DNA from: Mactromeris polynyma
Taxonomy: Eukaryota > Mollusca > Bivalvia > Venerida > Mactridae
DNA: 64,000 bases
Reading direction: 5' to 3'
NCBI GenBank assembly: GCA_032209605.1
Contig: JASFXZ010000005.1
Coordinates: 19,024,860-19,088,859 of the forward strand
Shown here: positions 25,281 to 61,420 of the stretch, one piece after another
Position numbering within the stretch: the stretch's first letter is position 1
Layout of the letters: every line of letters begins with the position of its first letter
The notes under the pieces: model-generated
Database searches by the model: none
What the model was told of the DNA's origin: nothing
Seen by the model: the letters and a program-made list of their open reading frames with translations, nothing else
Program-made: the position numbers and the translations under genes

Positions 25281-28200
25281 ATGTCGTCTCCAGAAGTGGA
25301 AGACTTTGAAATAACTGACGAAGATGTTTACAGTGCTTTCAATTTGCGTAAGGGATGGAGACAGTCTAAGAATCAGGCTCTGTATGGTAAGAACTGAGAT
25401 ATTGAGAATCAGTTTATTGGGAAAATAGTGCTACATTAAGAATAATGCATATTGTCTGAAATGGTCAAAGGATGTTACATTGTATATTTCTGTATCTTTA
25501 ACGTTAAAGATGAACATCTTGTGCTTGCCTGATTCAATTGATACTTGCGACAGGGTATTGAATATATATTGATGTATTTGTTAATTTCTTGCTATAGTTA
25601 CAGTTGAAGTGGTTGTGAAATGGTAATTTACTTTAAACTGTTGTTACTGATGCTTTAGTTTGCTGGAAACCAAAAAATATGTTTTTTTATTAATATCAAT
25701 GTTGATTGAACAACCATGGTTAAAAAAGTGTGCAGGAATCATATTGACCATATTTTTGTTTTTGTAAATCGTAAGTTTGTAACAAGTCATATTAACACAG
25801 GATTGGCAGTGAAAAACCTAGTCCTATACTAATGCTTCAAATGATTTAAACCCAAACTAAATGACCATGACTTCTGTATTATGATTCATACGTTGTAATA
25901 TCTGTATACAGAAAAAGTTCTTACATATTGTAGGCATGTGGGCTGACAATGACAGTGATGATGAGAGACCAGGGTTTGGTGGTGGTAGAAAGAAACAGGA
26001 TGCCACTGCTCCTATAGGGTTTGTTAGTGGTGGGATAAAGCAGGGTGATAAGACAGTAAAACAAGGAGAAGATGACTTAGTATGTTTATTCAGTTTCCAT
26101 ATTTTACCGAATGATCTTAAAATATATAGAAATATAAACTGACATTTGCTTGTTTCCACCTTTGGCTACAGGTCAAAGTGCATGTTGAGGGATCAGTCAG
26201 TATTTTTAAATGAGACTGACAGGACTATATTGAGTACTTGTTTTAAGTTAGCCAGGGTTTTCCCTCAGACTTTTCAAGATAGTGTCCCAGGATCCCCATT
26301 TCGGCCTTTTTGGAAACCCTGATAATATTTTAGGGTTTCGCATTAATGAAAAATGAAGATATGTTGCTGGATGCATTAAACGTTACCAGATGTCAATAAT
26401 ACAAGTGTTAGAATGATATTACAATGAAGTAAAGTTTATTGTCGAAGGTATTAGCGCAAAGAATATATGCTGATCGCTGTTGTGTGTCCTCAGGATGCAC
26501 AGACAGTTGCAAATATAAGTTCTATGTCCAAAAAAATGTGTCAGTGACACAGAAACCCTGGGTGAGGGAAATTCCTGGTTTATAGCTACATAGAATGAGT
26601 GTTCCATGGTTACAAACATAGATACAATTATCTACCCTTTTCGTATCAGAAATAATAGCAATTGTTTTAGTTAGATTAATTCAAAACAATATTTTATTGA
26701 TGAAAACGGTTTATACGAAAATATCTTAATATACTGAAGTTTTTTGTTTGGTTGATTAGGATGATGTTGAAGATGACAATGGCGCAGATTTTGACATTGG
26801 AGATATTGCAAGACTAAGTTACAAAGGAAAGAAAAAGAAGGAACAATATATCAGACGGGGTGCAGCAAAAGTACCTGGGGGAAAGCAGTAAGTTATCCTC
26901 AAGAGGTCATATCACTATGAAATATCAATTAAAGATGGTCACCTTTTTAACAAATTTTCAATGAAAAAAAAGGTCAAAACTTGTTTCGGCTCATTGTGAA
27001 TATTAAACACGCTATTATGTAATGGTGAAAAAATTTCACAAAATGAATGCTTATCACAGTGTTCTTAAATGCAAATGACTATATTGGTTTTTGAATTCTT
27101 GATACTTCTTTGAATATTTTTTTTTTATTTCTTGTTATTTTATTACTGTATACCATGGATTGATTTAATTTCAGAGACTTTGGTGAATGGGAGAAACATA
27201 CAAAGGGATTTGGTATGAAACTCATGCAAAAGGTACAACATTTTGTGATGGTATTGTTTCTAATAGGGCTTAGAGTCCCTTGAGCTGTTTTCTGTGATAA
27301 AAATTGACCAATGCAGTGGTCTCCCTTTTTAAATAAATTTGCCATCACATATACTTCTACAATTTATTGTTAATATAATCTTTACCATTAAATCTAACTT
27401 ACTTTGATGTAGACATTTCACTGATTATGTATCAGAGAAATGAGGCTAATAAAGGAGTTGAAACAAAAAATAAATTTAGAGGTGTAAAATTATTATTAAA
27501 AAAATAGTATCCAAGACGTGACTATATTTTATTCTAACATCCATCATCGCATGATAACAGGCAGTGATTAATAAAGAGCTAGGGGTGATAAGCAATGTGG
27601 AGCATTTGACAAAACTATTCAATGTAGTTTATTTTTAATCCAGGAGATGCAGAGTCTAATCAGAACGAAATAATGATTATCAGATTCTTTGTATGTTTAT
27701 TCTGAAACATCAAAAACTAAGCTCTCTGACTGTTGGCAAAGTCTGTAATAGTATGACTTTCTTTTGCTGTATGTTTTAACGTGACACTTTATAGTAATCA
27801 CAGAATTGGTTTCAATCTGTTACCATCTCCTCAGAATCATGTTTAAGCATTATACTACATATGTGATATTTTGCATTTTTTTTTTTTTTTTTTTTATGTA
27901 TAGATAATTATGAATTGGAAGTTCTTAGATCAGATATTGGTAAAACTAGGTGTTATTAATATTATGAGTATGCAGTTGTGAGTAGTTGTGAATTGTATGG
28001 CTTTTCTCTTATGTCGTCACTGTGTATTCATACCTCTGATACTGACAAGTCATTTCTCTCAATTTTATGATTGGTAATTTTGCACTATTGCGTAATTCTT
28101 TGTAGATGGGTTTTGAACTGGGCAAAGGTCTTGGTAAAAATAAACAAGGTATTACAACACCGGTGGAGGCAGTAAAACGTAAAACTCAGAAAGCAGGTAT

Positions 28201-31200
28201 GGCATTTCATGGTACAGAGAGGTCGGATAGGTCTTTGGTTGATTTCCCTGTACAAGATCAGGAAGAACAGGAGACCAAGGCATTCAAGGAGCAATTGTCA
28301 CAGTGGAGGAAGGAACCAGAGGTAGGCTTGAAGTCGAAGCTTGTTTTGTTTGTGGGTATTCATTGTGCTTGGGAGGCATGGTGGTCTAGTGGTGGAGTGT
28401 CATGCTCCTGATTTGTTGTGGGTTTAAATCCTGCAATGGACTTGGTCTTTACAGTCCTTTAATTAGGTACAGGTACTGGATTGAAACCCAGGTAGCCTTA
28501 ATCTAGAGTGGTAAATATAGATTGTGAGAAATTTTTTAACAACCATCATACAATAAATTAGTGATGTCAATATTCGGTTATTTTGCTAACCGGTTAACCA
28601 GTTAATCTTGCCAATGGATAATTGTCCAAAATACTTAGATTGTGACTTGGGATATCTTACAAGATTTTTTCGATTTTTTTCAAAATGAAAGTAGATTTTT
28701 CTGTAAAAAATAAATGATTAACTGGTTAGTGATTTTACTAACCAATAACCACATGTTTGAGCTGTTAACCGGTTTATCATTTACATCCCTAAAATATATA
28801 AGTTTAGACTATTCTGCTGTGAACTAAGGCATACTCATTTTATTATGTAATGAGTAAAATGTTTATAATGCAAAGAGTCAAGCAATCAAAGATTAGATTG
28901 TACCAAGAACTGGCTAATTTTGTGTATCAACTCAAAAATGCTTCTGAAATAAAATTTGTTATGCTGTGAAAGTAAATCAATTCAGGCCCATTGTGAGACT
29001 TACTCATTTGGTATGTTTTAATAACTCTGTGACTAATAAATCTGTTTTGTGAAATAATTTGATGGTCTTACTTTTGTCATTTAAAGCTTTGAAGTTTACT
29101 TGAAAAAATTAAGATTGCTCTTTCCTGTTTGTGTATTTCAGCCCATTCTTTAAGTCGCCTAAAGAGATAATCTGGCGTGGAACTAATTCTTATTGATATA
29201 ATTCTAAGTTTTAAATGCTAATTTGTTTTGTTAAAGGGAAAGAAAAAGAAAGTGAAATATGTGTTCAAGACTGCACAGGAAGCCATTGATACCAGTAGTA
29301 ACAAGAAGAAGGGGATGAACAGTCAGATGGCTAATGTCAAGGTCATTGACATGACTGGTAAAGAAAAGAAAGTGCTGACAGGTATTAAAATATTTAAGCA
29401 GACTTTATTTGGAAAAAAGTAGAAATACGAGTAATAGACAAAGTAAGCAGAGACACTTTTTGTTAATATTGTAGGCCATATGGGTTAAGGTATATTACAT
29501 ATTATGTAATATGATCCAATGTTATGTAACACTATTAAGTTTAGTGTATAAAGATCTTTAATTTTAACTTGATCATATTACATTATTCTGGTTATTGTTG
29601 GATATTGTATATTTTATTCCTGACGAACCAGTGGAAATTGGAATAAAAAAAGCATATGTTAAAATTGTTTATGTGCTGGCATCTTTACTTTTAATGTATG
29701 ATGGACATACAGAGCTTTCATGACTGTTGATGTCTCTCAGTGAGATAAGATAAATAACAAATTTTTGACTGTAACTGTTACATTGCCATAGTTTAGAAAT
29801 TATAAATATTAGTATTGCTTTGTCATGGCAGATGTACAAAATATGCATTTAAAGCAACACTTAACTTGAAGTAGTTACCTCAATGATAACACCACATTTG
29901 GGACCCTTGAAAATTTATCTTCTTATTGGGGTGGTCCTAGTACATGTATTGTGGTTGAATAAAGAGCAACAAAACAGTGGAATTGGACTTGCAAATTGTG
30001 TTATTAATTTCGAGGTGGTCTTATTATTGAGGTTGTCTTTAGGTGAGGTTTTACTGTATATTGTTTAGAAACCTTTATAGTTCTTGAATATTTTTATTCA
30101 AAATCCTCTTTAGATCGGAGTTTTGGAAAAAACTTAAAGGCAACAAGCATATATAGCAATTTTCCCTGTATTTCACAGGTTATCATACCATTGCCAACAG
30201 ACATGATCGACCAGATGATGAGGAGGATGATGTAACTGTCCTTCCAGGTAGACCTGCTGGTGATGCATTTAGTATGCCAGAGTTAACACATAATCTTAAC
30301 CTGCTCGTAGAAATGGCTGAAGAAGATATTGTACAGAATGATAGAAAGTAAGACACCGTTGTGAGATAGTTGTACTATTCTCTGTATGTTTTAGTTATGA
30401 GTAGCATTTCAAGGGATGAGAATGAAACTAGACTGTCTGCAAGTTGATAAAGCAGCAGATAGGGATGTTTTACTTTCACCCCTCTATTTGTGTATTTCCT
30501 TACTACAGTGTTTAGTCTACTTAATGACAAATTCGGCCTAGGGTTACCATAAATTAAGTCATAAGAATAAACGTGTATCTGATAAGAATTCATACGTACC
30601 ATGTGGTAGTTTCGTTTGGTAGTATTGATTCTCTATAGTATACATGCTTAAAATTATGTTTGTTTGTCACTGTGTCTAATGCTCAGTGTGTTTGTGGTAG
30701 GGAAATTTGATTTTCCTTTTGTGCAAAAAAGGATGTGTAGTTATGTGTTTGTTATCAAACTATTTCTTGACTGTCTGACATTGTACTTAACCAAAATCTT
30801 TAACCAGCTGCTGTGAGCAAATTTATTTGGGGAATAGTATAACCCTTGGCCATGTTGATATAACCATTGGCCATGTTGATATAACCCATGGCCATGTTGA
30901 TAATACCCTTGGCCATGTTGATATTACCCTTTGCCATGTTGATATTACCCTTGGCCATGTTGATATGACTCTTGGCCATGTTGATATAACCCTTGGCGAT
31001 AACACATCAAGGAAAATTCTGTTGGGAGTCAGTAGTGTGAATATTTTCAGAATTCACCATATTAAAATGAATATTTCAGCTTAAAATTCTTTTAAAACGA
31101 AACATCATGGATCTAGTATTGTTAGATGGTCATATCATTTTATGTAACACTGTGTGTAATCATATCTTTATTCACAGGCTTTCTATGCTTGAATGTGAGA

Positions 31201-34200
31201 CAGATAGGACATTTATTTAAAAAATTAATCACAACACTTGTCACCTGGTTACATAAACTTTTAACAATGTTACAGGTTAAAACATGAGAAAGATTTGATT
31301 GTAAATATGAAATATGAGAAGACAAGAGTAGATACAGTAGTAGAACAAGAGGAGAAACAGATTGAACGTCTTGCTAAAGTCCTGGAAATCATTGGAACGT
31401 AAGTATTACAATAATTATTTATTATATTGTACATGTGTCTTTATAATGGAAGGTAAGTATTACAATATATTGTACATGCATCTCTATAATGGAAGGTAAG
31501 TATTACAATCTATTGTACATGCATCTCTATAATGGAAGGTAAGTATTACAACATATTGTACAAGGGTCTCTATAATGGAAGGTAAGTATTACAATATTGT
31601 ACAAGCGTCTCTTTAATGGAAGGTAAGTATTACAATCTATTGTACATGCATCTCTATAATGGAAGGTAAGTATTACAACATATTGTACATGCATCTCTAT
31701 AATGGAAGGTAAGTATTACAATATATTGTACAAGGGTCTCTATAATGGAAGGTAAGTATTACAATATATTGTACAAGCGTCTCTTTAATGGAAGGTAAGT
31801 ATTACAATATATTGTACATGCATCTCTATAATGGAAGGTAAGTATTACAATATATTGTACAAGGGTCTCTATAATGGAAGGTAAGTATTACAATATATTG
31901 TACAAGGGTCTCTATAATGGAAGGTAAGTATTACAATATATTGTACAAGGGTCTCTATAATGGAAGGTAAGTATTACAATATATTGTACAAGGGTCTCTA
32001 TAATGGAAGGTAAGTATTACAATATATTGTACAAGGGTCTCTATAATGGAAGGTAAGTATTACAATATATTGTACAAGGGTCTCTATAATGGAAGGTAAG
32101 TATTACAATATATTGTACAAGGGTCTCTATAATGGAAGGTAAGTATTACAATATATTGTACAAGGGTCTCTATAATGGAAGGTAAGTATTACAATATATT
32201 GTACAAGGGGCTCTATAATGGAAGGTAAGTATTACAATATATTGTACAAGCGTCTCTTTAATGGAAGGTAAGTATTACAATATATTGTACAAGGGTCTCT
32301 ATAATGGAAGGTAAGTATTACAATATATAGTACAAGGGTCTCTATAATGGAAGGTAAGTATTACAATATATTGTACATGCGTCTCTATAATGGAAGGTAA
32401 GTATTACAATCTATTGTACATGCATCTCTATAATGGAAGGTAAGTATTACAATCTATTGTACATGCGTCTCTATAATGGAAGGTAAGTATTACAATATAT
32501 AGTACAAGGGTCTCTATAATGGAAGGTAAGTATTACAATATATTGTACAAGGGTCTCTATAATGGAAGGTAAGTATTACAATATATTGTACAAGGTCTCT
32601 ATAATGGAAGGTAAGTATTACAATATATTGTACATGCATCTCTATAATGGAAGGTAAGTATTACAATATATTGTACAAGGGTCTCTATAATGGAAGGTAA
32701 GTATTACAATATATTGCACATGCCCTCTATAATGGAAGGTAAGTATTACAATATATTGTACATGCGTCTCTTTAATGGAAGGTAAGTATTACAATATATT
32801 GTACATGCATCTCTATAATGGAAGGTAGGTATTACAATATATTGTACATGCATCTCTATAATGGAAGGTAAGTATTACAATATATTGTACATGCGTCTCT
32901 TTAATGGAAGGTAAGTATTACAATCTATTGTACATGCGTCTCTATAATGGAAGGTAAGTATTACAATCTATTGTACATGCGTCTCTTTAATGGAAGGTAA
33001 GTATTACAATCTATTGTACATGCGTCTCTATAATGGAAGGTAAGTATTACAATCTATTGTACATGCGTCTCTATAATGGAAGGTAAGTATTACAATCTAT
33101 TGTACATGCGTCTCTTTAATGGAAGGTAAGTATTACAATATATTGTACATGTGTCTCTATAATGGAAGGTAAGTATTACAATATATTGTACAAGGGGCTC
33201 TATAATGGAAGGTAAGTATTACAATATATTGTACATGCATCTCTATAATGGAAGGTAAGTATTACAATATATTGTACAAGGGTCTCTATAATGGAAGGTA
33301 AGTATTACAATATATTGTACAAGGGGCTCTATAATGGAAGGTAAGTATTACAATATATTGTACAAGGGGCTCTATAATGGAAGGTAAGTATTACAATATA
33401 TTGTACAAGGGGCTCTATAATGGAAGGTAAGTATTACAATATATTGTACAAGGGTCTCTATAATGGAAGGTAAGTATTACAATATATTGTACAAGGGTCT
33501 CTATAATGGAAGGTAAGTATTACAATATATTGTACAAGGGTCTCTATAATGGAAGGTAAGTATTACAATATATTGTACAAGGGGCTCTATAATGGAAGGT
33601 AAGTATTACAATATATTGTACATGCGTCTCTATAATGGAAGGTAAGTATTACAATATATTGTACATGCGTCTCTTTAATGGAAGGTAAGTATTACAATAT
33701 ATTGCACATGCCCTCTATAATGGAAGGTAAGTATTACAATATATTGTACATGCATCTCTATAATGGAAGGTAAGTATTACAATATATTGTACAAGGGTCT
33801 CTATAATGGAAGGTAAGTATTACAATATATTGTACAAGGGTCTCTTTAATGGAAGGTAAGTATTACAATATATTGTACATGCGTCTCTTTAATGGAAGGT
33901 AAGTATTACAATATATTGTACATGTGTCTCTATAATGGAAGGTAAGTATTACAATATATTGTACAAGGGGCTCTATAATGGAAGGTAAGTATTACAATAT
34001 ATTGTACATGCATCTCTTTAATGGAAGGTAAGTATTACAATATATTGTACAAGGGGCTCTATAATGGAAGGTAAGTATTACAATCTATTGTACATGCATC
34101 TCTATAATGGAAGGTAAGTATTACAATATATTGTACAAGGGTCTCTATAATGGAAGGTAAGTATTACAATATATTGTACATGCGTCTCTTTAATGGAAGG

Positions 34201-37200
34201 TAAGTATTACAATCTATTGTACATGCGTCTCTATAATGGAAGGTAAGTATTACAATCTATTGTACATGCGTCTCTATAATGGAAGGTAAGTATTACAATC
34301 TATTGTACATGCGTCTCTTTAATGGAAGGTAAGTATTACAATATATTGTACAAGGGTCTCTTTAATGGAAGGTAAGTATTACAATATATTGTACATGCGT
34401 CTCTTTAATGGAAGGTAAGTATTACAATATATTGTACAAGGGGCTCTATAATGGAAGGTAAGTATTACAATATATTGTACAAGGGTCTCTTTAATGGAAG
34501 GTAAGTATTACAATCTATTGTACATGCGTCTCTTTAATGGAAGGTAAGTATTACAATATATTGCACATGCCCTCTATAATGGAAGGTAAGTATTACAATA
34601 TATTGTACATGCATCTCTATAATGGAAGGTAAGTATTACAATATATTGTACAAGGGTCTCTATAATGGAAGGTAAGTATTACAATATATTGTACAAGGGG
34701 CTCTATAATGGAAGGTAAGTATTACAATATATTGTACATGCGTCTCTTTAATGGAAGGTAAGTATTACAATATATTGTACATGTGTCTCTATAATGGAAG
34801 GTAAGTATTACAATATATTGTACAAGGGGCTCTATAATGGAAGGTAAGTATTACAATATATTGTACATGCATCTCTTTAATGGAAGGTAAGTATTACAAT
34901 ATATTGTACAAGGGGCTCTATAATGGAAGGTAAGTATTACAATCTATTGTACATGCATCTCTATAATGGAAGGTAAGTATTACAATATATTGTACAAGGG
35001 TCTCTATAATGGAAGGTAAGTATTACAATATATTGTACATGCGTCTCTTTAATGGAAGGTAAGTATTACAACATATTGTACAAGGGTCTCTATAATGGAA
35101 GGTAAGTATTACAATATATTGTACATGCGTCTCTATAATGGAAGGTAAGTATTACAATATATTGTACATGTGTCTCTATAATGGAAGGTAAGTATTACAA
35201 TATATTGTACAAGGGTCTCTATAATGGAAGGTAAGTATTACAATATATTGTACATGCGTCTCTTTAATGGAAGGTAAGTATTACAATATATTGTACAAGG
35301 GTCTCTATAATGGAAGGTAAGTATTACAATATATTGTACATGCATCTCTATAATGGAAGGTAAGTATTACAATATATTGTACAAGGGTCTCTATAATGGA
35401 AGGTAAGTATTACAATATATTGTACATGCATCTCTATAATGGAAGGTAAGTATTACAATATATTGTACAAGGGTCTCTATAATGGAAGGTAAGTATTACA
35501 ATATATTGTACATGCATCTCTATAATGGAAGGTAAGTATTACAATATATTGTACAAGGGTCTCTATAATGGAAGGTAAGTATTACAATATATTGTACATG
35601 CATCTCTATAATGGAAGGTAAGTATTACAATATATTGTACAAGGGTCTCTATAATGGAAGGTAAGTATTACAATATATTGTACAAGGGTCTCTATAATGG
35701 AAGGTAAGTATTACAATATATTGTACATGCGTCTCTTTAATGGAAGGTAAGTATTACAATATATTGTACATGTGTCTCTATAATGGAAGATAAGTATTAC
35801 AATATATTGTACATGCATCTCTATAATGGAAGGTAAGTATTACAATATATTGTACAAGGGTCTCTATAATGGAAGGTAAGTATTACAATATATTGTACAA
35901 GGGTCTCTATTATGGAAGGTAAGTATTACAATATATTGTACAAGGGTCTCTATAATGGAAGGTAAGTATTACAATATATTGTACATGCATCTCTATAATG
36001 GAAGGTAAGTATTACAATATATTGTACAAGGGTCTCTATAATGGAAGGTAAGTATTACAATATATTGTACAAGGGTCTCTATAATGGAAGGTAAGTATTA
36101 CAATATATTGTACAAGGGTCTCTATAATGGAAGGTAAGTATTACAATATATTGTACATGCATCTCTATAATGGAAGGTAAGTATTACAATATATTGTACA
36201 TGTGTCTCTATAATGGAAGGTAAGTATTACAATATATTGTACATGCGTCTCTATAATGGAAGGTAAGTATTACAATATATTGTACAAGGGTCTCTTTAAT
36301 GGAAGGTAAGTATTACAATATATTGTACAAGGGGCTCTATAATGGAAGGTAAGTATTACAATATATTGTACAAGGGGCTCTATAATGGAAGGTAAGTATT
36401 ACAATATATTGTACATGCATCTCTTTAATGGAAGGTAAGTATTACAATATATTGTACAAGGGTCTCTATAATGGAAGGTAAGTATTACAATATATTGTAC
36501 ATGCATCTCTATAATGGAAGGTAAGTATTACAATATATTGTACAAGGGTCTCTATAATGGAAGGTAAGTATTACAATATATTGTACAAGGGGCTCTATAA
36601 TGGAAGGTAAGTATTACAATATATTGTACAAGGGTCTCTATAATGGAAGGTAAGTATTACAATATATTGTACAAGGGGCTCTATAATGGAAGGTAAGTAT
36701 TACAATATATTGTACATGTGTCTCTATAATGGAAGGTAAGTATTACAATATATTGTACATGCATCTCTATAATGGAAGGTAAGTATTACAATATATTGTA
36801 CAAGGGTCTCTATAATGGAAGGTAAGTATTACAATATATTGTACAAGGGTCTCTATAATGGAAGGTAAGTATTACAATATATTGTACAAGGGTCTCTATA
36901 ATGGAAGGTAAGTATTACAATATATTGTACATGCATCTCTATAATGGAAGGTAAGTATTACAATATATTGTACATGTGTCTCTATAATGGAAGGTAAGTA
37001 TTACAATATATTGTACATGCGTCTCTATAATGGAAGGTAAGTATTACAATATATTGTACAAGGGTCTCTTTAATGGAAGGTAAGTATTACAATATATTGT
37101 ACAAGGGGCTCTATAATGGAAGGTAAGTATTACAATATATTGTACAAGGGGCTCTATAATGGAAGGTAAGTATTACAATATATTGTACATGCATCTCTTT

Positions 37201-40200
37201 AATGGAAGGTAAGTATTACAATATATTGTACAAGGGTCTCTATAATGGAAGGTAAGTATTACAATATATTGTACATGCATCTCTATAATGGAAGGTAAGT
37301 ATTACAATATATTGTACAAGGGTCTCTATAATGGAAGGTAAGTATTACAATATATTGTACAAGGGGCTCTATAATGGAAGGTAAGTATTACAATATATTG
37401 TACAAGGGTCTCTATAATGGAAGGTAAGTATTACAATATATTGTACAAGGGGCTCTATAATGGAAGGTAAGTATTACAATATATTGTACATGTGTCTCTA
37501 TAATGGAAGGTAAGTATTACAATATATTGTACATGTGTCTCTATAATGGAAGGTAAGTATTACAATATATTGTACAAGGGGCTCTATAATGGAAGGTAAG
37601 TATTACAATATATTGTACATGTGTCTCTATAATGGAAGGTAAGTATTACAATATATTGTACAAGGGTCTCTATAATGGAAGGTAAGTATTACAATATATT
37701 GTACATGTGTCTCTATAATGGAAGGTAAGTATTACAATATATTGTACAAGGGTCTCTATAATGGAAGGTAAGTATTACAATATATTGTACAAGGGTCTCT
37801 ATAATGGAAGGTAAGTATTACAATATATTGTACATGCGTCTCTATAATGGAAGGTAAGTATTACAATATATTGTACATGCGTCTCTATAATTGAAGGTAA
37901 GTATTACAATATATTGTACAAGGGTCTCTATAATGGAAGGTAAGTATTACAATATATTGTACAAGGGGCTCTATAATGGAAGGTAAGTATTACAATATAT
38001 TGTACAAGGGTCTCTATAATGGAAGGTAAGTATTACAATATATTGTACAAGGGTCTCTATAATGGAAGGTAAGTATTACAATATATTGTACAAGGGGCTC
38101 TATAATGGAAGGTAAGTATTACAATCTATTGTACATGCATCTCTATAATGGAAGGTAAATATTACAATATATTGTACATGCGTCTCTATAATGGAAGGTA
38201 AGTATTACAATATATTGTACAAGGGTCTCTATAATGGAAGGTAAGTATTACAATATATTGTACATGCGTCTCTATAATTTGTTTGCATTTGTTGAATGGG
38301 CTACTTCTAGAGAAACTTACCAAATATATACAGTCTATACCCCTGTGTACCCCACATTGATGCTGATTTTGTTTCAATATTCTTACAGATGTAATGAGAG
38401 AACCAACCCTGGATGTCCAAATCCTGTTACACTTGATGAATGTATGGCAATATTTCGTATTCTACAGAATGATTTCTATACAGAATACAAGATGTATGAA
38501 CTAGAGACATTGGCTATTGCCCTAGTGTTTCCTTTAGTAAGTAATACATTGTTGTAACCTTACTCTGGACACATTTAATCTGTTTCTATGTGTACTTCAT
38601 GATTTTGTGTTATATCTTGATTTATCCTGTCACTTGCCGTAATTTCGACCCGATAACAGGGTGCCTGATATTTTTTGCTTTATCAGGTCACTTGGTCACA
38701 TGACTTTTATCTCACGTCACATGACCACGTGACTAGCCGGACTATTTTTGGTAAAGTATCGCAATGTTATCTTTTTTCCGGACTTATTAAAACAATGGAT
38801 TTTCAATTGAATTCTATCGCAAATTTCATCTTTTTTGTATTATGCATACCATAAAATGTTCATTTCCCCAAAATGGTTCTGTTTTCATTCAAACATTGCT
38901 TAATCTTATCCGATACTCGATCTGCATTTTGACCCGTATTTAAGTGCTTACTGAAAGTGGAACACCGAACACGTAGTAAACAACGTAGTCAAACAAATTG
39001 TCGGATGTTTACACAATTGGAACAAAATCATGTCGGAAATTTGAGTTTGTCTGCGTTTGAACTCCATCAGGGATGACCATACAGTCGAGGTTCTCAATAA
39101 AATAACGTATTGATCAGTAGCAATAGCAGTACGTACCCCACCCATCTCAATTTTAGAATCCAAGTCCGGTTTCATCCATTTGTGCCGAAAATTCCTTTGC
39201 AATCGTAATGACACTGATAAACTGAATCCGCATTTTTTCGTTGTTTTCTTGTGCAGTTTTAAATGTCCAAATATTCATGAAATAAATGTAAATATCACTT
39301 ATTTTCACGCGTTCTGTGGCACTTGACATTTCTCATCATTTGTAAACAAACCAAGGGAAATTGCGTAATAACTAATTGTAATGTCTAATCTTGACTATTA
39401 CGAAATTGTTGCAAATTCTTAGATTTGTTATTGATTTATATTCATCAGATGTTCGCAAACGCAAATAAATTCATATTGCCACTGAAAATGTGTCAGACTC
39501 ATGGGAACTATTTCTCTCGGCGTAAGGTGCTAACCACACTTATATTCAATACATCATTAGAGATTCAATACGTCACGAATTAATTACGTCACAATTTAGG
39601 GGAAGTAACTCGGTATTATTTAAAATTAAAGGTATTTCCCCCTTACTTAACACAAGAAGTGACAGGATAAATAGAATAATAGGTTAGTGACGTGGAATGA
39701 AAAAGTTTATCAGGCTCGGCTCCGGTAGTTATCGGGTTCGCCTGCGGCTCACCCGATAAATTCCTCCGCCTTGCCTGATAAACTTTTTCATTCCATGTCA
39801 CTAACCTATTATTCTCTATATAATATGGGTTAAACAAACTCTGATGCAATCAATGTCATATGGGATTAGTGTGTTGTTGTTTGTGAATTGTATAAATGTG
39901 AGTTGTCACGGACTGCATAATGAATTAATCTATGTCAAATATTGTAAATGATTTCAAGTTCTCCAAAACTTTCTGGCTCGTCTGAATATAGTCATGTCAT
40001 TTGGTGTGGTAAACATCTAAGTTTTATAGCAGAATTGTACAGTGCACAAAGAAGGAATGATTGTCAGGTTGGCACTGACTGAAACAAACTGCATGACATT
40101 TAGTCAGTATTTGTATGTTTATATGACATGTTGCTTAGTTACGTCTGAGTAGGGGATGAGTAGAAGCTAAGAATGTTGATCAATCACTTTGCACTTCTGC

Positions 40201-43200
40201 AATTTTTCAGATGAGAGAATATTTCAAGGACTGGAATCCATTGGTTGATAACAGTTACGGTATGTCTGTAATAAAAGAATGGCAGTACATGTTAGGCGAT
40301 CCTAACCATGTGTATGTAAAGGACCAGAACAATATGGACGTATATCAGAGACTTATCTGGGACATATGGTTACCGCGTGTCAGAACTGTTATACTGTAAG
40401 TATGCATAAACACCATGTTTAATTTGTTTGAACTGATTTACTTTGCATCCGATGTGAAATTGGTTGTTGTGATTTTTTTTTTTTTTAAAGTTATCCATTT
40501 ATATTAATTATTTATATTGCCCGGTTTCTTTTTCAAAATTTTAAAATAACTCTCCTTCGGTTTTTATTTCAACAAAAAAAAGGAGAAAAAAGTGATAATG
40601 TTTACATTTTATGTTTAATGTTTATAATGTTCTGGTTCTGGTTCAGCATATCTGTTATGGTCAAGTTTTATCTGGACCTTTTACATAAATAGTCTGGTTA
40701 GATTTATATTGATCACTCTCAATGACCGCTTCCTCGGTCACTGTCAAGTACACATGTCTAAATACGTGACGGTGAAGTTCACAGTTCATCCTCCTCCAAG
40801 GCTTTATTTGAACTCGTGACATTCAAATCAGGAGTCGGGCATTCTGCTCCTCGTCTATTTCGCCTCCCTGTGTGTTCTTGAAAATTATAAACCGTGTTAA
40901 GATCATGTTTGAAATATTTCAGTGTAATAATTGGCCTCTATGATTCTCCATTTCTTAGAGTACATTCAAACATGTTTTATTGTGACCTTTGAATATGGAT
41001 TAGTACTTGAAAATATTGTACGACTGTGTTCCAAACAATAAAGCTTGTAATGTAAATTTTGTAATTAACACTATTGCTTTAATTTTGTGTGAAAAATATT
41101 TGTCATTAATTGCACATTTAAGTGTTATTCAATGAGTTGTCCATAGGCACTATGTACTTTCTCTTAAATGTATACCAATCAGTATGATTCTATGTGCTAA
41201 GTTTTGAAATATATTATATAAATTTATCTGGAATGGAAAGCCAGACAAAATTGCAAGAAATACGCTTAAACTTGATTATAAAGATGGTGGTTTAAAGATG
41301 ATCGATATAAACGGATATGTAAATGGAATAAAGGCAGGCTGGATAAAAAGAATATTTAACATAGAAAACAACGGGTTATGGAAAAAACAATACTTAAAAG
41401 AGTTAAATAAATTTGGCGGAAAACTACTATTGCAATCCAACATATCAGAAAAAGATATAAAAACAAAAGTGCAAAACTCATTTCTGAAAGATATAATTAT
41501 TAGTTGGTCCAGAATAAATTTTTCAAACAATGTCAATCCACTTCAGGAAATAATATGGAATAACTCAAACATCAAATTAAATAATGATACTATTTTTTAT
41601 AAACAGTGGTTCTTGAAAGGAATTACACAAGTAAAACAATTATATGATTGGAATAACAACCGTTTCTATGATTTTGAATCGTTTTCAATACTATATGGTC
41701 TTCCAAGTTCAGATTTTTTGAAACATCATTCACTTTTGACGAACATACCAACACAATGGAAAGAATCCATAAAACACACGAATTATAATGAGAAAGTTGA
41801 CGAACTGTTAATAGAAACCATTATGAGAATTAAAAAACCAAACAAAATACTGTATAATAAGTTTATTCATAAACAAATAACACCAGCTAATTCGCTAAAC
41901 AAATCAGAACTTAAATGGAATGAAGAATTTAATAACCTTAATTGGAAAACCATATATCTTAATCCCATAAAATGTACAATCGAAACAAAACTCAGAGAAT
42001 TTCAATATAAATATTTAAAAAGAATTATCCCTACAAATAGTTATCTGCTTAAATGCAACATTGCACAATCTAGTTTATGCGACCTTTGTAATATGCATAT
42101 CGAAACTATCCAACATTTATTCTGGGACTGTCAAAAAAGTCAATCTTTCTGGACCGATTGTAAACTATTCCTTAATCAGAATAATATGAATATACCATTT
42201 AACTACGAAACCATATCATTTGGTGTAACAGTTAGTTCCAATGAAAGCTCGATGGTTAACTTCATAATTCTGATAGCAAAGTATTTTATATTTAAATGTA
42301 AAATGCAAAAAATCGTTCCAATATTTCGTCACTTCATACGATTTAACCCCCTTATACAATGTAACAGATATTACACAAACCGATGTCTATCCTATCTTCA
42401 TCCTTTAACTCAAAGCAACTTAAACACATTTATGAAGTTACTAATACTATATTGACCAATCATTTTTCTTCATGTGATATGATTGGTTTATTTTTTTTTT
42501 GTTGCTCCTAAAATCTATTCTTTCGTCCTATTTCATATCTTCCCTCATCTGTAAAAAATCCTTGAAAAAAAACTCTCACAAAAAGTGTCATATGTGTGTA
42601 CCTTATGTATAGTATAAATATATATGTATGTATAAACGATTTGTGTATGTTATATGAGTAACTATTATATATGTAGGAATGTGTATATATGTTATTGTAT
42701 TGTAAAATAAACGGGGTACCCACATAGGTCCTCAAACAAGAAAAAAAAAGTTTTGAAATACAAAACTGGCCAATACTACTGTGCTGTTGTAATAATTGAA
42801 ACTTTAGGATATTTTGTCTTAATGGTATTCAATTATACTTCTATTCCGTGTGTTTGTAGGACATGGAATTGCAGAGAATGTGAGAATGTGATTGAGTTAT
42901 TGGAGACATGGATGCCTGTGTTACCTACCTGGGTTATGGAGAATATCCTTGGTCAGCTTGTGTTACCTAGATTAATGCAAGAAGTAGAAAACTGGAATCC
43001 ACTTACCGATACAATGCCGATACATGCCTGGTTACATCCATGGTTACCACTAATGGGTCAGTTTATATGCTCATTGAAAACATTATATGTAGTTATGTTT
43101 GTTTTTGGTTGTTCATTTTTCGTTCCTTCCTTCATTCCGTTAGTTCGTACATTTATTTGTTTGATTATCGTTCTGGTGATGCGACCATTCATTCAATATC

Positions 43201-46200
43201 TTACACCAAACCTTCAAGCTATTTAATAATTTGAACTAAAATGTGATTTCCATGGTGAAGGTACTTTGAACATAAGATTGTTTTCATCTTTCTGCAAAAT
43301 AGCATGAAATCAGAATAAAAACTTGTCAGCATTACTTTTTGTCTTAACATACATTTCACTTGATAATTTCTCTTGAAGGTGATAAGCTTGAGCCATTATT
43401 TGCACCAATAAGACAGAAACTTGGTAACGCTCTCACAAACTGGCATCCATCCGATAGCTCGGCTAAAGTTATCTTGAAGCCATGGCAAGGAGTATTCAGA
43501 GACGGACATATGGAAATATTTCTACGCAAGAATATTGTACCTAAACTGGAGTTGTGTCTGCAGGAATTTCCTATCAACCCTCATCAGCAAACCCTTGGTA
43601 CTTTATATTATTTTACATTTGTACATTGTATATTATAATATACACTACCCTCCAAAAGTTCCTGCACACTGACAATTTCCCATAGCAATTAATGTATGTT
43701 CATATTTGTTTCACATGCAATACAGCAGAAATGCTTTTTAACGTAGCAATACTTTTCTGTAGAAGTATTTATAAATTTGTACTGAAACAAATTATCTTAT
43801 TTTCTGTGTCAGATCAATCAGTTACACACATTTTGGTTTCGGATGCAGGCCGATTTATGTGCAAATTGTTAATTCTAAACTATCCATCACAGAAATGGGA
43901 TGGATAATATTACTTCATGGTCATACATGTTTGATTTGAAATTCTGTAAGAAAAAGTAAGAAATTCAAAATATTCAAGTGTGAAGTAACTTTTGGATTGC
44001 AGTGTATAGTAATTTCAGGTTCTATAGGAGCACTTCCATGCATTCTTCTCTAAATTCTTGTGCAGACAAAAATATCAATTTGACACTTCTTTCTGATATT
44101 TCCTTGTTTACAGAACAGTGTTATTTTTGCAGCAATTGTATGCAAGATGCCCTATAACACCTTCTCAGTCCTCAGATTGGTTATATTTTGGCTTTGCTAC
44201 CTGACCTGTCTTGATGGCTCCCGCAACTCCTGCTCAGAGTTCAGTCAACGTATTTGCGGCTCACATTTTGTAACGTTTTGCAATTTGGTTCCCCGTGTGC
44301 AGTCAATGTGATACGTTGGGCCAGGGATACAAAACAAAACGTGAGCAACTGTTAGCCTTAACTGATCGCAGGGCTAGAGTTTGTGTTCAGGATTGTCGTC
44401 ATGGATCAGTTATCCACCTGGATTCACCTTACTCATTCATATATTTACATGTTTGTGACTAATTACCAGGTGAGTTTTTTCTTCATACATTTAGTAACTT
44501 AACCCATATCTATTAACTGATATTGGAATAACGAAGTGGGAATTTAAAATAAATGATTTGTTTTATATAATTATTGCTTCGATTTCAGAACCTTTAAATT
44601 GGGTGATGTCATGGACTGATCTGATCTCACTAAGATACGTGGTACCTATGTTTGAGAAGTTTTTCTTCTCTCGATGGCTACAAGTTCTGTGTACATGGCT
44701 TGGCAATATGCCAAATTATGATGAAGTTACTAAGTGGTACCTGGGATGGAAGTCTGTATTTACGGAACCATATCTTTCCCATCCTGTCATCAAAGGTATG
44801 TTAGATTGTTTATTTATTACCTAAAGCTATGCATTTTTTTTTATTACCTAATCCAATGAAATGACTCAAAATTCTTCTGAATCAGATGAGTTAATTGTTT
44901 TTTCTGGTGACCCTACTATAAGTGGTAGGTAGGTAGACATTTCATCTTTTTAAAAAAAATATTTTCAGTAAGTAATAGTTTCGCTATATTCCTAATGATC
45001 AAGGAGGCAGCAAACAAATACATTTTATGTTCCTGCCGTTCAAATAATGGTGAATGGGTATTATGTGTTACCCTGTCTGTCTGTGCAAAACATAGGTTTT
45101 CGATCAATAACTCTTGATAATAAAATAGTCAACAGCGTAACTGAATTAAATAGCTTCGATGTCTTATTAGTTTAGAGGTTGCTTGTTCATTACTTCTTTG
45201 CAGTCATTCTACAGACTCATATATAGTAGTTTCCAAGGTAGTAAACTCAGTTTGACTAATTTAGTCACTGGTTTTAGTTGCACTTATGAAGAACAGGATT
45301 GTACAGAACCGATTCTTATTTGTATTCATGTTTTTCATACAGAGATGTTCACCAAAGCGCTAGATATGATGAATCGTGCTGTGTCAGGACATTTCCAGCC
45401 CGGGGTGAAGGAAAATATGGCTTACTTCACTCATACTGAACGTAGAAGCATTGGGGAACCATCATCTTCTAGGTCTAATTCACCACATGCAGGAGGATCT
45501 GGAGAGGTATGGTAGTGATTCATGTTATTTTGATGCCAAGAAATCTGTATAATAGTTGATAATCTGTGTATTTAATTAGGGCTTTTCCAGGAAAATCTCC
45601 CTCTATGGTAGTGATGAGGTTTTCATGTTATTTTGATGCCAAGAAATCTGTATAATAGTTGATAAGCTGTGTATTTAATTAGGGCTTTTCCAGGAAAATC
45701 TCCCTCTATGGTAGTGATGAGGTTTTCATGTTATTTTGATGCCAAGAAATCTGTATAATAGTTGATAAGCTGTGTATTTAATTAGGGCTTTTCCAGGAAA
45801 ATCTCCCGCTATGGTAGTGATGAGGTTTTCATGTTCTTTTGATGCCAAGAAATCTGTATAATAGTTGATAAGCTGTGTATTTAATTAGGGCTTTTCCAGG
45901 AAAATCTCCCTCTATGGTAGTGATGAGGTTTTCATGTTATTTTGATGCCAAGAAATCTGTATAATAGTTGATAAGCTGTGTATTTAATTAGGGCTTTTCC
46001 AGGAAAATCTCCCTCTATGGTAGTGATGAGGTTTTCATGTTATTTTGATGCCAAGAAATCTGTATAATAGTTGATAATCTGTGTATTTAATTAGGGCTTT
46101 TCCAGGAAAATCTCCCCGGGGTGGGAACGATGATCAATTAAAATTTTCAGGTGGGGGGGGGGGTCAAAAACTAATTAAAATTCTGTTGGTGTTCCCCTTA

Positions 46201-47222
46201 TTTTCATTTTGTTGTTCCTACCTACCCCCCCCCCCCCTAATACCCCCCAGGTAGATATTCCTGGAATTACTGTTTGAATTGAGACTGGGATATGAATATG
46301 ACAGCCATTAAATAAAGTAGCATTGCTTGTTTTCCCCACTCTGGATCTGCTAGTGCTTGTAAAGTATACTGTTATGTTTGTTCTTGTACTTCACTGGTTG
46401 AATTAATAGTAAGTTTTCGTAGTGTTATTTTATTGGCTATGTTGGTTTTCACACATTCCAAATACATTTAATGTATTTCAGCCTCCTGGTATGAAAGTAA
46501 CGTCAACAACATATCCTGCAAGCTTTAGAGAGTTGGTAGAGAGAAAGGTAAATATAGTTATCATCATTAATGTTAATATCTGTTTTGTGACAAATTATTT
46601 AAGTACTGTAAAATTAACATTTCCAGTGTTGATTGTATTCTTTGGTACATTTTCACATTTACAAGTACACTATTATAGTTCATATGTAAACCATTTGGAC
46701 TAGATTTAGCTTGTCATTGGAAAGAAGGATTGTTTTCTTAAGAAAATAATTTTTGTACAAGTATACTGGTTGCCTGTGTTTTCGTGGTACTGAAAAACTA
46801 ACGTAACGGAAGAAAAACTTATTTTCATTTTCATTGTTCAGTTCTTCTTTCAAATCTTTTAAAGATAGTTTCTTTTCTGTAGTTTTCCTATTATTCTAAA
46901 TTGGTTCAATATACGTTTTGTTGTCCAAATACCAAAATACCGCGAAACCGGAAGTAACGCGAAAATAGCAGCAAACACTATACTCATAAACTTTTCTGTC
47001 TATAATTTCTGTGTCCTAAAAATGTTCTTGTTTGTTTTTCAGGCTGAAGAAAATAATTTGGTCTTTGTTCCGATTCCTGGTAAGACTCACGAAGCAAAGC
47101 AGATTTATCGCTGTGGTAGAGTTACCATGTATTTTGATAGAAGCGTTGTTTTCATGATGGATCCACAGGGAATGTTTGTGCCTGTTTCTCTGCAGAAACT
47201 GATAGATACTGCAAAAAGTTGA
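25281..47222 (+). CDS. TFIP11: TFIP11 / Ntr1-like G-patch spliceosome disassembly factor, 818 aa, 16 coding exons
   Basis: TFIP11 acts in the nucleus, where its G-patch activates the helicase DHX15 to dismantle the intron-lariat spliceosome. Coding exons: 25281-25386, 25934-26079, 26760-26887, 27175-27232, 28106-28321, 29237-29381, 30179-30347, 31276-31398, 38389-38536, 40211-40395, 42860-43056, 43379-43597, 44589-44795, 45343-45506, 46482-46547, 47043-47222. Every junction is GT-AG and every phase joins; the sum is 2457 nt. The start MSSPEVEDFEITDEDV follows a 20-nt leader behind an acceptor at 25260. Domains: acidic N-terminus with YGMWADNDSDDERP (residues ~35-48), G-patch ~134-170 (GFGMKLMQKMGFELGKGLGK), VKVIDMTG ~250, a coiled region ~300-360, then the GCFC-like region ~364-690 with VENWNPLTDTMPIHAW, HPSDSSAK, NIVPKL and TKWYLGWKS. 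The C-terminus has DRSVVFMMDP- and SLQKLID-like blocks. Human TFIP11 is 837 aa, so the length is right. No key residue is missing. Introns 5, 8, 9, 10, 12 and 14 carry repeats or insertions listed separately. Confidence 0.97.
28365..28520 (+). repeat. tRNA-derived SINE in TFIP11 intron 5
   Basis: The A-box-like TGGTCTAGTGGTGG (28382-28395) and the B-box-like GGGTTTAAATCC (28420-28431) are spaced as in a tRNA, starting about 45 bp after the exon 5 donor. The piece CTCCTGATTTG between them recurs on the minus strand at 40824-40834, so the two heads belong to one family. The 3' limit is uncertain. Confidence 0.5.
28559..28791. mobile_element. hAT-like MITE in TFIP11 intron 5
   Basis: The left end TAGTGATGTCAATATTCGG and the right end CATTTACATCCCTA are imperfect inverted repeats. 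Inside, several GGTTAACCGG- and CTAACCGGTTAACCAGTTAA-type palindromes flank a non-coding core. TAGGGATGT-like ends with subterminal GTTAACC repeats fit hAT MITEs. I could not assign a convincing target duplication. Confidence 0.5.
30841..30998 (+). repeat. 21-bp minisatellite in TFIP11 intron 7
   Basis: CCCTTGGCCATGTTGATATAA is repeated about eight times with small changes (ACCATTGG, ACCCATGG, CCTTTGCC). It stays open in two frames because 21 is a multiple of three, but it lies in an intron and carries no gene signal. Confidence 0.85.
31399..38278 (+). repeat. Giant 43-bp minisatellite filling TFIP11 intron 8; each unit carries a 5' splice-site consensus
   Basis: The array begins at the first base of intron 8 (exon 8 ...GGAAC|GTAAGTATT). 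A divergent 54-bp first unit is followed at 31453 by 43-bp units up to the last, at 38241. The distance of 6788 bp equals 158 x 43 minus 6, and the shortfall is explained by a few 1-2 bp deletions, so there are about 159 full units plus the first. A unit reads GTAAGTATTACAATATATTG, then TACA, a variable AGGG/TGCA/TGCG/AGGGG block, TCTCTATAATGGAAG. Almost all keep AAG|GTAAGTATT; exceptions lie near 32825 (GTAGGT), 35790 (GATAAG) and 38155 (GTAAAT). Every unit also holds the 14-bp palindrome TACAATATATTGTA. The array ends 110 bp before the exon 9 acceptor and makes up about 98% of the intron. Confidence 0.98.
38630..39840. mobile_element. Unclassified structured element in TFIP11 intron 9
   Basis: The left part (CGACCCGATAACAGGGTGCC, CTGATA...TATCAGG) and the right part (TTATCAGGCTCGG, ATCGGG...CCCGAT, GCCTGATAAAC) share CCCGATAA and CCTGATA motifs in opposite orientation. 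This suggests the structured ends of one element of about 1.2 kb. The right end is a large hairpin, listed separately. A minus-strand open frame at 39214-38948 (88 codons) has no recognisable product. Confidence 0.35.
39671..39819. repeat. Long inverted repeat with nested hairpin
   Basis: Left arm 39671-39715 (ATAGAATAATAGGTTAGTGA...) is mirrored by right arm 39773-39819 with one substitution and a 2-bp indel. Between them ATCGGGT (from 39731) and ACCCGAT pair around a GC-rich loop. The transcript would fold into a stem of about 45 bp inside TFIP11 intron 9. Confidence 0.75.
40690..40880 (-). repeat. tRNA-derived SINE, minus strand, TFIP11 intron 10
   Basis: On the minus strand GAGTTCAAATA (40815-40805) resembles a B box. 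CTCCTGATTTG (40834-40824) is shared exactly with the SINE head at 28.4 kb. The block is GC-richer than its flanks. Its ends are uncertain. Confidence 0.45.
41199..42760 (+). mobile_element. 5'-truncated LINE insertion with 13-bp target-site duplication
   Basis: AAGTTTTGAAATA stands at 41199-41211 and again at 42748-42760 directly behind a poly(A) tail (42739-42749). It is a perfect target duplication. The element body (about 41212-42747, 1.54 kb) carries the 3' end of a LINE ORF2 and about 290 bp of 3' UTR. It sits in TFIP11 intron 10 in the same orientation as the gene. The AT-rich body and the poly(A) tail fit an L1/Tx1-like lineage, but the clade is not certain. Confidence 0.85.
41212..42455 (+). 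pseudogene. LINE ORF2 C-terminal fragment (after the reverse transcriptase domain)
   Basis: The frame is open from the truncation point. It begins KFIWNGKPDKIARNT..., which is typical of the region after the RT fingers and palm, then DYKDGGLKMIDI; the first ATG in this frame is at 41298. Near its end CDLCNMHIETIQHLFWDC forms the Cys-Cys-His-Cys knuckle (zf-RVT type) found at the C-terminus of many LINE ORF2 proteins. Endonuclease and RT are absent because of 5' truncation, so the fragment cannot work alone. No internal stop has arisen over about 400 codons, which indicates a recent insertion. Confidence 0.85.
43643..44004. mobile_element. Tc1/mariner-like MITE in TFIP11 intron 12
   Basis: The left end CACTACCCTCCAAAAGTTCC and TGCACAC is mirrored by GTGTGAAGTAACTTTTGGAT and TGCAGTG at the right. 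TA flanks both ends (43641-43642, 44005-44006). CAC/GTG termini with a TA duplication fit the Tc1/mariner superfamily. The 362-bp length and lack of a transposase frame show it is non-autonomous. Confidence 0.7.
44205..44392. mobile_element. Degenerate copy of the 62.6-kb foldback element
   Basis: AACGTTTTGCAATTTGGTTC, CCGTGTGCAGTCAATGTGAT and ACAAAACGTG closely match the core of 62612-62757. The terminal arms (CAGAGTTCAGTCAACG and CTTAACTGATCGCAGGGCT) are decayed. It is an older member of the same family, in TFIP11 intron 12. Confidence 0.6.
45508..46118 (+). repeat. 103-bp tandem array (6 copies) starting at the TFIP11 exon 14 donor
   Basis: TATGGTAGTGATGAGGTTTT starts recur at 45604, 45707, 45810, 45913 and 46016, exactly 103 bp apart. 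The first copy (45508, 96 bp) starts with the donor sequence GAG|GTATGG itself and lacks 7 bp. Later copies read CTCTATGG, so they do not duplicate a usable GT donor. Copies differ at very few positions. Confidence 0.95.
46153..46236. repeat. Poly-G and poly-C tracts facing each other in intron 14
   Basis: A G run of 11 (46153-46163) and a C run of 12 (46225-46236) lie about 60 bp apart. They could pair as a hairpin in RNA or form quadruplex-type structures in DNA. Confidence 0.6.
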
Positions 47223-53315: not shown

Positions 53316-53713
53316 TAGGCCTATACACTGTATAGTAAATTTGTACATGTAGAATAACTTTTGATGATATTTTACAATCCGGTAAATGCACACACAATTC
53401 TGTTAAGTATTTTTAATATCAAAAGTATTTTTGGAAAGGAGAAAAAGTATACTAGCTTGTGCTATCGATTTTTTTCAAAATTATATCGATAAAAATATAT
53501 AAAACTAGATTGTCCGTACTTACCCCTTGTTTCTGGTGTTGTTATTTTGGAATAAAAACTTAATTTTATGGTGTGTTTTTAAACCTCGACAGCGTGAGGT
53601 AGATTTGATTATTATCTTTGTATGTGTTTCATTTGCAAAATTAACGCTTGAGCAATTAGCCTGATTTACCGGTCCCAACATGTACAATTTGAAAGTACCA
53701 AAAGTGCAAATAA

Positions 53714-54839
53714 TGTAATGTTCTAGAATTTACCTGAACCTTGGGAGTATGGTACATTCATCCTTCACTTGCTCCCATCTTGATAAGCTTCTTGTTTACT
53801 TTTACACTTTGATGCTACTGCTGACGACAGTACATGAAGTTGGTTGCTGACTTGGTTTTATGTTACAAGACAGCAACACAACGTTACATAATGTGCCAGC
53901 TTTTATCTATTACATCATTTGATTCTATTTTCGTTACGTTATGTAACATGTTTCCGCGACTTGTCACAATTTATCCTTTCTAGTTGACTGTTTGCAACGC
54001 TCAGTTTATAATTTCATGTCAGCCATGTTGGATTTTCACTGTGATGGTTACTTAGCAACCACCACAGTCTAATGCACCGCTGTTTCGATATTTTATCAGT
54101 ACCTGTTAAGATGTTTTCTTTGAAGAGTGCCCGGAAAAGGCCTTATGAGGTTATTTGATGTTTAATTTATATTGTTTAATAGTAGTTTATACGTTAAGGT
54201 CCGTATTATTGTTTATTTTTATAACAAGCACCTGACGTTCTTTTTGCCACGACCCACACTGTGGACTGTGGACCACAACGCCACAGTTGTGGACTGTGAG
54301 TGCCACACTGTGGATTGTGGGTGACACACTGTGGGCTGTGGAGATCTTAGGAGTATATAAGCTCCACTGCCCGTCATTCGGGGACTTCCAATACTTTTGT
54401 TTCTCCGAGACCGTTTGTCTATTTTTTCCTTTAAAGGTGCATTTTCAAATCTTACTTTAAGTAACTCATTAAACAACTTCTATACATTATCTTATATTTT
54501 TGATACCTCAAGTAATAATTACACTGTAGTAACAATCTCTAAACTCATTTTATTATATGTGACTTAGTGGATGCGCCGACTAGTTTGTTTGTTGTTTAGA
54601 TGTGTACTAGTTAGTTGTCTATAGATACCAATATTAATAGAGAGTAAAACTCTTTGAAACGAATCTCATAGTCTTTGTTTTAGTTTTCATGGCTTGAGTT
54701 TATTTATTTACATACTAGTATAGATCTTTAACCGGAAGTCCAACGGTTATCTAACAGTATTCCAACTCAGTAGTTCACACCAGTTCGTGTATCAGCACTC
54801 ACACAACGACAGTTTCGCACACATACCGAGGGCGTAACA
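53714..54839 (+). repeat. 5' LTR
   Basis: 1126 bp, TG...CA boundaries. The U3 contains a cluster of TGTGG/CCACA motifs (54252-54342: CCACACTGTGGACTGTGG and variants) followed by a TATA box TATATAA (54354-54360), so transcription should start near 54385. There is no AATAAA in the LTR. A minus-strand open frame of 85 codons occurs in both LTRs and is incidental. Confidence 0.93.
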
Positions 54840-54843
54840 TTTA

Positions 54844-54861
54844 TGGTGGCAGCGGTGGGAT
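54844..54861 (+). other. Primer binding site, tRNA-Leu type
   Basis: TGGTGGCAGCGGTGGGAT begins four bases after the 5' LTR. It is complementary to the 3' end of a eukaryotic tRNA-Leu (AAG/TAG anticodon group, ending ...ATCCCACCGCTGCCA plus CCA) as I remember that sequence. Confidence 0.75.
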
Positions 54862-54939
54862 CTGATATCATTATTCAGATCCAGTGATCGAACAAGCGTC
54901 CTCCAGATCTAGAGAAGCATTCTAACATTTAACGAAACA

Positions 54940-61345: not shown

Positions 61346-61420
61346 GTCGCAGTGGTGTAGTGGTTAGCATAACGGACCGGCAATCCGTAGACCTGGCTTC
61401 TATTCCCGGTAGCGCCATTG
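61346..61420 (+). repeat. tRNA-like sequence (SINE head or tRNA pseudogene)
   Basis: TGGTGTAGTGGTTAGCATA is a good A-box/D-arm. ACGGA-CCGGCAA-TCCGT forms an anticodon arm with GGC (Ala) at positions 34-36, but C replaces U33. The T-arm CCTGG-CTTCTATT-CCCGG departs from the B box, and the acceptor stem does not pair. A working tRNA-Ala is unlikely. Confidence 0.5.

Follow-up and report, generated by a model that had tools for sequence, protein, structure and literature searches.

Does an intron composed almost entirely of near-ideal 5' splice sites (donors) serve its host gene, or is it a tandem repeat that grew out of the donor itself? The question is raised by intron 8 of the TFIP11 gene in the bivalve Mactromeris polynyma, which lies in a 64,000-nucleotide (nt) stretch of contig JASFXZ010000005.1 (GenBank assembly GCA_032209605.1; positions 19,024,860 to 19,088,859 of the forward strand). 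We refer to this whole stretch as the window. An earlier note on the same DNA had described about 160 tandem donors in the intron and imagined a sponge for U1, an autoregulatory splicing switch or protection from premature polyadenylation, with the chance expansion of a donor-containing segment as the null hypothesis. The analysis presented here indicates that the array is a real, extreme and probably passive donor-anchored minisatellite. All searches of the source genome were made in one assembly of 792.8 Mb in 299 contigs.

Tandem Repeats Finder (TRF) called the repeat at 31423-38278 with a period of 43 bp, 159.6 copies and 94% matches. After cutting at the unit junctions, we obtained 153 units of 43 bp, four of 42 bp, one of 41 bp, a first unit of 54 bp and a last, cut unit of 38 bp (Table 1). 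The array accounts for 6,880 of the 6,990 bases of the intron (98%), only the final 110 nt before the acceptor being non-repeat sequence, and its head-to-tail units fall within the range of approximately 10-100 bp by which minisatellites are recognized. The first base of unit 1, 31399, is position +1 of the intron, that is, the beginning of the authentic donor. AAG/GTAAGTAT (the slash marks the splice boundary), written AAGGTAAGTAT across the junction, is kept at 156 of the 159 array junctions, and the donors of units 34, 103 and 158 differ from it by one single change each. Both the number of near-ideal donors and the start of the first unit at the real donor of exon 8 had thus been described correctly. 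The motif TGGAA upstream of the donor is common to the end of exon 8 and the end of the unit. No second locus of the 43-bp unit was found in the window or, by a search that skips very common words, in the 793-Mb genome. We rejected the reading of the unit as a dispersed repeat; the unit was also without match in viral contigs and in the contigs of prokaryote genomes, which are weak tests for an animal repeat. A 14-base perfect palindrome, TACAATATATTGTA, follows the donor and occurs in 134 exact copies within the array, one of them at 31803-31816.

The gene model was predicted by hand from splice consensus, reading frame and the human protein. The 16 exons joined together yielded an intact open frame of 818 amino acids (aa), which matched 'Tuftelin-interacting protein 11' (PDB 8ro2_TF) with an E value of 3.4e-262. 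The Pfam domains TIP_N, G-patch and GCFC were detected in the product, the last with an E value of 1.6e-92 at residues 379-647. The identity of the host gene is in agreement with the earlier note, and so is the intron number, 8, with exon 1 at 25281. With its frame unbroken, the gene is presumably expressed in spite of the decoy donors.

The decoys are stronger than the site that they follow. Against the 5' end of U1, the array donor matched at 10 of 11 positions and the authentic donor, AAC/GTAAGTAT, at 9 of 11. Outside the array, a single site on the plus strand of the window has 10 of 11 matches, and none on the minus strand of the entire window reaches this number. The calculated energy of U1 pairing was -12.5 kcal/mol for the array donor and -7.6 kcal/mol for the authentic donor, which is therefore the weaker one, as had been claimed, and -9.3 kcal/mol for the strongest of the gene's other donors. 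Were the choice made by U1 pairing energy and site number alone, the authentic donor would win approximately two times in a million. Since the gene looks intact, we infer that position must outweigh affinity in the choice of the donor. RNA structure that hides the array donors was considered and rejected, as the mean unpaired probability in four folded stretches was 0.29-0.74 per donor, neither hidden nor fully open.

The consequence of using a decoy can be read from the frame. The retained intron 8 reads ACG TAA, with a stop at 31400-31402, after residue 364 and before the GCFC domain. Because exon 8 ends in phase 2, both retention of the intron and use of any array donor read this ACG TAA, and because the stop lies upstream of all array junctions, every array donor gives the identical stop. 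The product would be truncated after residue 364 and lack GCFC (379-647).

The array also bears traces of its growth. The mean pairwise difference between units is 5.6%, and the intron without the extra copies would be 164 nt long. Two blocks, of 18 and 8 units, recur without any difference (Table 1); when the unit order was shuffled 200 times, repeated runs reached at most 7 units. The identical 18-unit duplication points to a recent change in copy number.

We consider it likely that the array arose by a tandem duplication across the 5' splice site followed by minisatellite growth, and that the decoys are normally ignored because of their position. A short tandem duplication spanning the last part of exon 8 and the first part of intron 8 would have copied the donor, and the copied donor would already have had, or would have acquired, a G at position -1. 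Slippage and unequal exchange may then have generated the approximately 159 extra units, expanding the intron from about 164 nt to 6,990 nt, with the donor motifs inherited from the founder and without selection on single units. In the pre-mRNA, the array units should bind U1 well, and the authentic donor would normally be chosen, being adjacent to the exon and the first to be transcribed. Occasional use of an array donor would lead to the stop after residue 364 and deliver the transcript to decay. The TGGAA motif at both the exon end and the unit end is expected if the duplicated piece included the end of the exon. The exact 18-unit duplication, the single genomic locus of the unit in the search above and the second array of the gene, in intron 14, also speak for this history.

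Similar arrays in other genes strengthen the view that a donor-containing segment simply expanded, the null hypothesis of the earlier note and the reading that fits best. We scanned the genome for three AGGTAAGT motifs spaced by 20-50 bases. The pattern gave 772 + 1075 matches and its backwards version 616 + 616, from which we claim no enrichment; the matches are overlapping array copies, including those of the intron 8 array, and not independent arrays. Among the matches listed, there were at least 16 array loci on two contigs (C1 and C2), five of which had a common GTTGTACCAACA-type unit, and the 5' flanks of the other 11 were analyzed. One of them (L039; C2:14189612) begins in an exon of succinate-semialdehyde dehydrogenase (SSADH). 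The 48-aa piece ending at the donor matched both Aldedh (3.1e-13) and an SSADH structure (1.1e-15), and a stretch further upstream matched Aldedh at 8.6e-12. Its unit comprises the last 31 nt of the exon and the donor, 30 of the 31 nt recur before the second donor, and 7 GTAAGT were found in the analyzed part of the region (C2:14187500-14189900). A second locus (L030; C1:6992700, in the region C1:6992600-6995000) has its start at a donor whose exon is probably that of a DEG/ENaC channel, and in its unit the final 11 exon nt (11/11) are followed by the donor and 30 nt of the intron. The identity of this exon is less firmly indicated than that of the SSADH exon; the 34-aa piece had no Pfam match and hit ASIC1 at an E value of only 0.0039, but an open reading frame further upstream matched ASC at 1.3e-19. 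A third, 35-bp array (L029; C1:4338600-4341100) may be an exon-junction case like the former two. Its first unit forms the final part of an open frame that follows a good acceptor, the later units carry CCAG/GTAAGT after TGCTTGTAG so that each resembles a tiny exon with both splice sites, and the putative exon gave no Pfam or PDB match. In the translated upstream stretches of the remaining 8 loci, no exon was recognized, and a Pfam scan of one of them (L037) gave no match. Two or three exons at 11 loci do not prove special seeding, as the arrays were selected for holding AGGTAAGT and are hence likely to lie at real donors. In a 200-kb sample, 0 of 21 minisatellites contained GTAAGT (mean 0.39 and maximum 2 in 90 permutations), too few to tell. 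Altogether, the loci suggest that 5' splice sites can turn into minisatellites more than once within one genome.

Three sets of observations weigh against passive growth from a duplicated donor. Firstly, the base at position -1 is G at the array junction and C at the end of exon 8, which demands at least one change in the favorable direction between founder and exon.

Secondly, donors are associated with more than one array of this gene. The first copy of the array in intron 14 begins at intron position +2 (Table 1), so that a donor lies within 2 nt of the start of two of the four arrays that TRF called in the introns of TFIP11. With uniform placement, the probability of this is 3.8e-5 (2.3e-4 at 5 nt and 9.3e-4 at 10 nt, all calculated post hoc), and growth in random places would predict fewer such cases. 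The exon junction of intron 14 reads AGGTATGG and the later units read CTCTATGG or CGCTATGG; with no G before TATGG, the original donor was not kept in them. A 21-bp array in intron 7 (30838-30997) lies away from any donor.

Thirdly, the donor columns of the intron 8 units may be under constraint. The earlier note had proposed comparing the donor bases with the rest of the unit, and the two halves of this comparison pointed in different directions. Units 1 and 160 were excluded from the counts, as were gaps and column 26, whose only variation comes from the alignment of the 42-bp units. Variants occurring in at least two units fell in 9 columns, none of which is among the 12 of the donor window (0/12 versus 9/31; Fisher p = 0.036, rising to 0.09 when the linked columns 25-29 are counted as one). 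The sole long run of columns free of shared variants, from column 35 round to 13, includes the donor. This pattern would also be produced by weak constraint. On the other hand, the clean run is 22 columns long, nearly twice the length of the donor window, and 11 of the 43 circular 12-column windows, all inside this run, are free of shared variants. Private substitutions showed no avoidance, as 3 of 5 fell in the 12 donor columns, including one that destroys GT, and 2 in the other 31. When all variant events were pooled, 3 of 15 were in the 12 donor columns out of 43 (p = 0.36). Thus, the old variants give a hint of donor constraint, and the recent ones give no such sign. Columns 14 and 15, both with shared variants, fall in the loop of a hairpin that the palindrome TACAATATATTGTA could form.

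Known systems provide a frame for the array. In IFI6, the units are approximately 12 nt long and extra units change the protein; this kind of minisatellite includes the authentic donor in its first unit, just as unit 1 starts with the authentic donor of intron 8. According to one paper, two downstream repeat units of human IFI6 serve as donors, with three mRNA species as the result (PMC4526556). The array in intron 8 resembles this repeat in that the units supply donors, 156 of 159 junctions carrying the donor consensus, and it belongs to the same kind by structure; the extra donors, whose use defines the IFI6 case, are candidate sites here. Unlike IFI6, the units are 43 nt long, the 159 extra copies occupy 98% of an intron of 7 kb, U1 pairs better with the intact decoys than with the real donor, and any use of them meets an immediate stop. 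The SSADH array, in which an exon end and its donor are repeated, looks closer to IFI6 than the TFIP11 array does. Of the published kinds, the human IFI6 minisatellite comes closest to the intron 8 array, from which unit size, copy number, location and consequence set it apart.

Human introns derived from tandem arrays were reportedly described by Zhuo et al. in 2007. Intron gain by tandem duplication of AGGT-containing segments (the Rogers model), including fission-yeast introns across 24-bp duplicates, is treated in passages of a further report (PMC4974935). Intron 8 is like such introns in having tandem units with AG/GT at each junction inside an intron, but unlike them the unit is not a recognizable copy of an exon and the acceptor sits in a separate, non-repeat tail of the intron. 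The best alignment of the unit was 24/43 with exon 8 (mean 21.9 and maximum 23 in 20 shuffles, that is, one above the shuffles) and 23/43 with exon 9 (shuffle maximum 25), and the birth of this intron from an exon duplication is unsupported for TFIP11. No report of the intron 8 array appeared in the titles and abstract beginnings of open-licence literature on decoys and the U1 small nuclear ribonucleoprotein, minisatellite splice donors and TFIP11 autoregulation.

Among the alternatives, we first consider a poison-donor switch, which we regard as unlikely. Controlled use of array donors would place the stop after residue 364 and destroy the transcript, so that the array would set, or feed back on, the level of TFIP11. 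The idea gains from the strength of the array donors over the authentic one, from the single stop to which all of them lead, with a truncated protein devoid of GCFC, and from the avoidance of the donor columns by shared variants. The lariat spliceosome undergoing disassembly contains U2, U5 and U6, U1 having left by then, and the statement of the earlier note that TFIP11 frees U1 in this process needs correction accordingly. The disassembly passages of one report likewise mention U2, U5 and U6, and its excerpts place TFIP11 of the fungus C. thermophilum in quality-control spliceosomes whose 5' splice site is bulged (PMC11958768). If TFIP11 acts in complexes that reject aberrant 5' splice sites, the amount of TFIP11 itself could tip the balance between a weak authentic site and strong decoys. 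A narrower version appears very unlikely to us: the TFIP11-DHX15 discard pathway, whose targets are spliceosomes with poor 5' splice sites, would decide within the transcript of TFIP11 itself between the authentic donor, the weaker one, and some 156 stronger decoys, and the copy number would set the TFIP11 level. The indifference of private mutations to the donor and the presence of similar arrays in unrelated genes of the genome argue against a switch, and no report of TFIP11 autoregulation was seen in the titles and abstract beginnings of the literature on TFIP11, introns and autoregulation. A functional story specific to TFIP11 is possible but unsupported.

Recursive splice sites are zero-length exons, in which AG is directly followed by a donor, and the junctions of the array, with AG and then GTAAGT, look alike. 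If each unit were such an exon, splicing from the real donor to any unit would regenerate a donor and the intron could be removed stepwise without harm. The units do run from GT to AG, except for the cut last unit and the one that lost GT, and the next unit starts with GTAAGT. The median acceptor score of the 159 junctions, 1.5, is above 77% of 525 other intronic AGs, and the best junction scored 5.7 (median 4.8 and minimum -0.8 for real acceptors). The matrix behind these scores was, however, built from only 15 acceptors, all of this gene, and unlike at recursive sites the pyrimidine tract at the junction is weak (CAAGGGTCTCTATAATGGAAG) and the copies number 159. We give stepwise removal only a slim chance.

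That part of the copy number or the block duplication is an artefact of assembly is a highly improbable reading. A 774-bp block repeated without difference can arise in assembling long arrays, but many private and shared differences among units are distributed along the array, on both sides the array passes into non-repeat sequence that belongs to the same intron or exon, and an artefact would alter the count of units and not the nature of the array.

The proposals centered on U1 fare worst. A local platform, on which the array gathers U1 against premature polyadenylation or titrates it, would draw on 156 sites with the pairing energy and accessibility calculated above, and 139 weak AATATA signals lie in the array. 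The array contains no AATAAA and no ATTAAA, weak evidence in either direction since a short unit easily lacks a given hexamer, and the intron minus the array, approximately 164 nt, needs no protection. The suggested protection from premature polyadenylation thus shows no positive sign, and we attach hardly any probability to a platform. With about a million U1 per nucleus, 156 sites per transcript make a global U1 sponge implausible, and we rejected it on these numbers.

The remaining features of the window are mentioned for completeness. A 61-bp tandem array of about 45 copies (47462-50147) lies directly downstream of the TFIP11 stop codon, and a 37-bp array (63295-63596) has a consensus unit with GAGTAAGTAC, a weaker donor-like motif. 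TFIP11 intron 10 contains a LINE-like open frame (zf-RVT; 41208-42452; LINE, long interspersed nuclear element). A long terminal repeat (LTR) retrotransposon at 53711-59652 encodes gag, protease, reverse transcriptase and RNase H domains, and its direct repeats, identical over at least 300 nt, suggest a probably recent insertion. A tRNA-like match at 61346-61417 (Rfam RF00005), not called by ARAGORN with the bacterial code, is perhaps part of a short interspersed nuclear element.

Table 1. Coordinates of TFIP11 and its donor-anchored arrays in the window.
Feature	Position	Strand	Basis
TFIP11 coding region, 16 exons, 818 aa + stop	25281..47222	+	in-frame throughout; PDB and Pfam matches
Exon 8, end AAC, phase 2	31276..31398	+	gene model
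Intron 8, 6990 nt	31399..38388	+	gene model
Authentic intron 8 5' splice site AAC/GTAAGTAT, beginning of unit 1	31399..31406	+	gene model
43-bp minisatellite, 160 units, 159 array junctions	31399..38278	+	TRF and cutting at junctions
Unit 1, 54 bp, sole unit with 11-bp extra stretch	31399..31452	+	
Mutated array donor, unit 34 (GTAGGTAT)	32825..32832	+	junction sequence
8-unit block, duplicate without difference at 34715-35058 (20 units on)	33856..34199	+	unit order
Mutated array donor, unit 103 (ATAAGTAT, GT lost)	35790..35797	+	junction sequence
18-unit block (774 bp), head-to-tail duplicate without difference at 36736-37509	35962..36735	+	unit order
Mutated array donor, unit 158 (GTAAATAT)	38155..38162	+	junction sequence
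Intron 8 non-repeat tail with acceptor TTCTTACAG	38279..38388	+	sequence, gene model
Exon 9	38389..38536	+	gene model
Intron 14 array, 6 copies of 96-103-bp unit, first copy from intron position +2	45508..46116	+	TRF

As a donor-anchored minisatellite, intron 8 of TFIP11 offers a natural and extreme test of how a donor that borders an exon beats stronger sites downstream. In this bivalve genome, minisatellites that form at donors would provide a route for the swelling of introns and an origin of spare donors.

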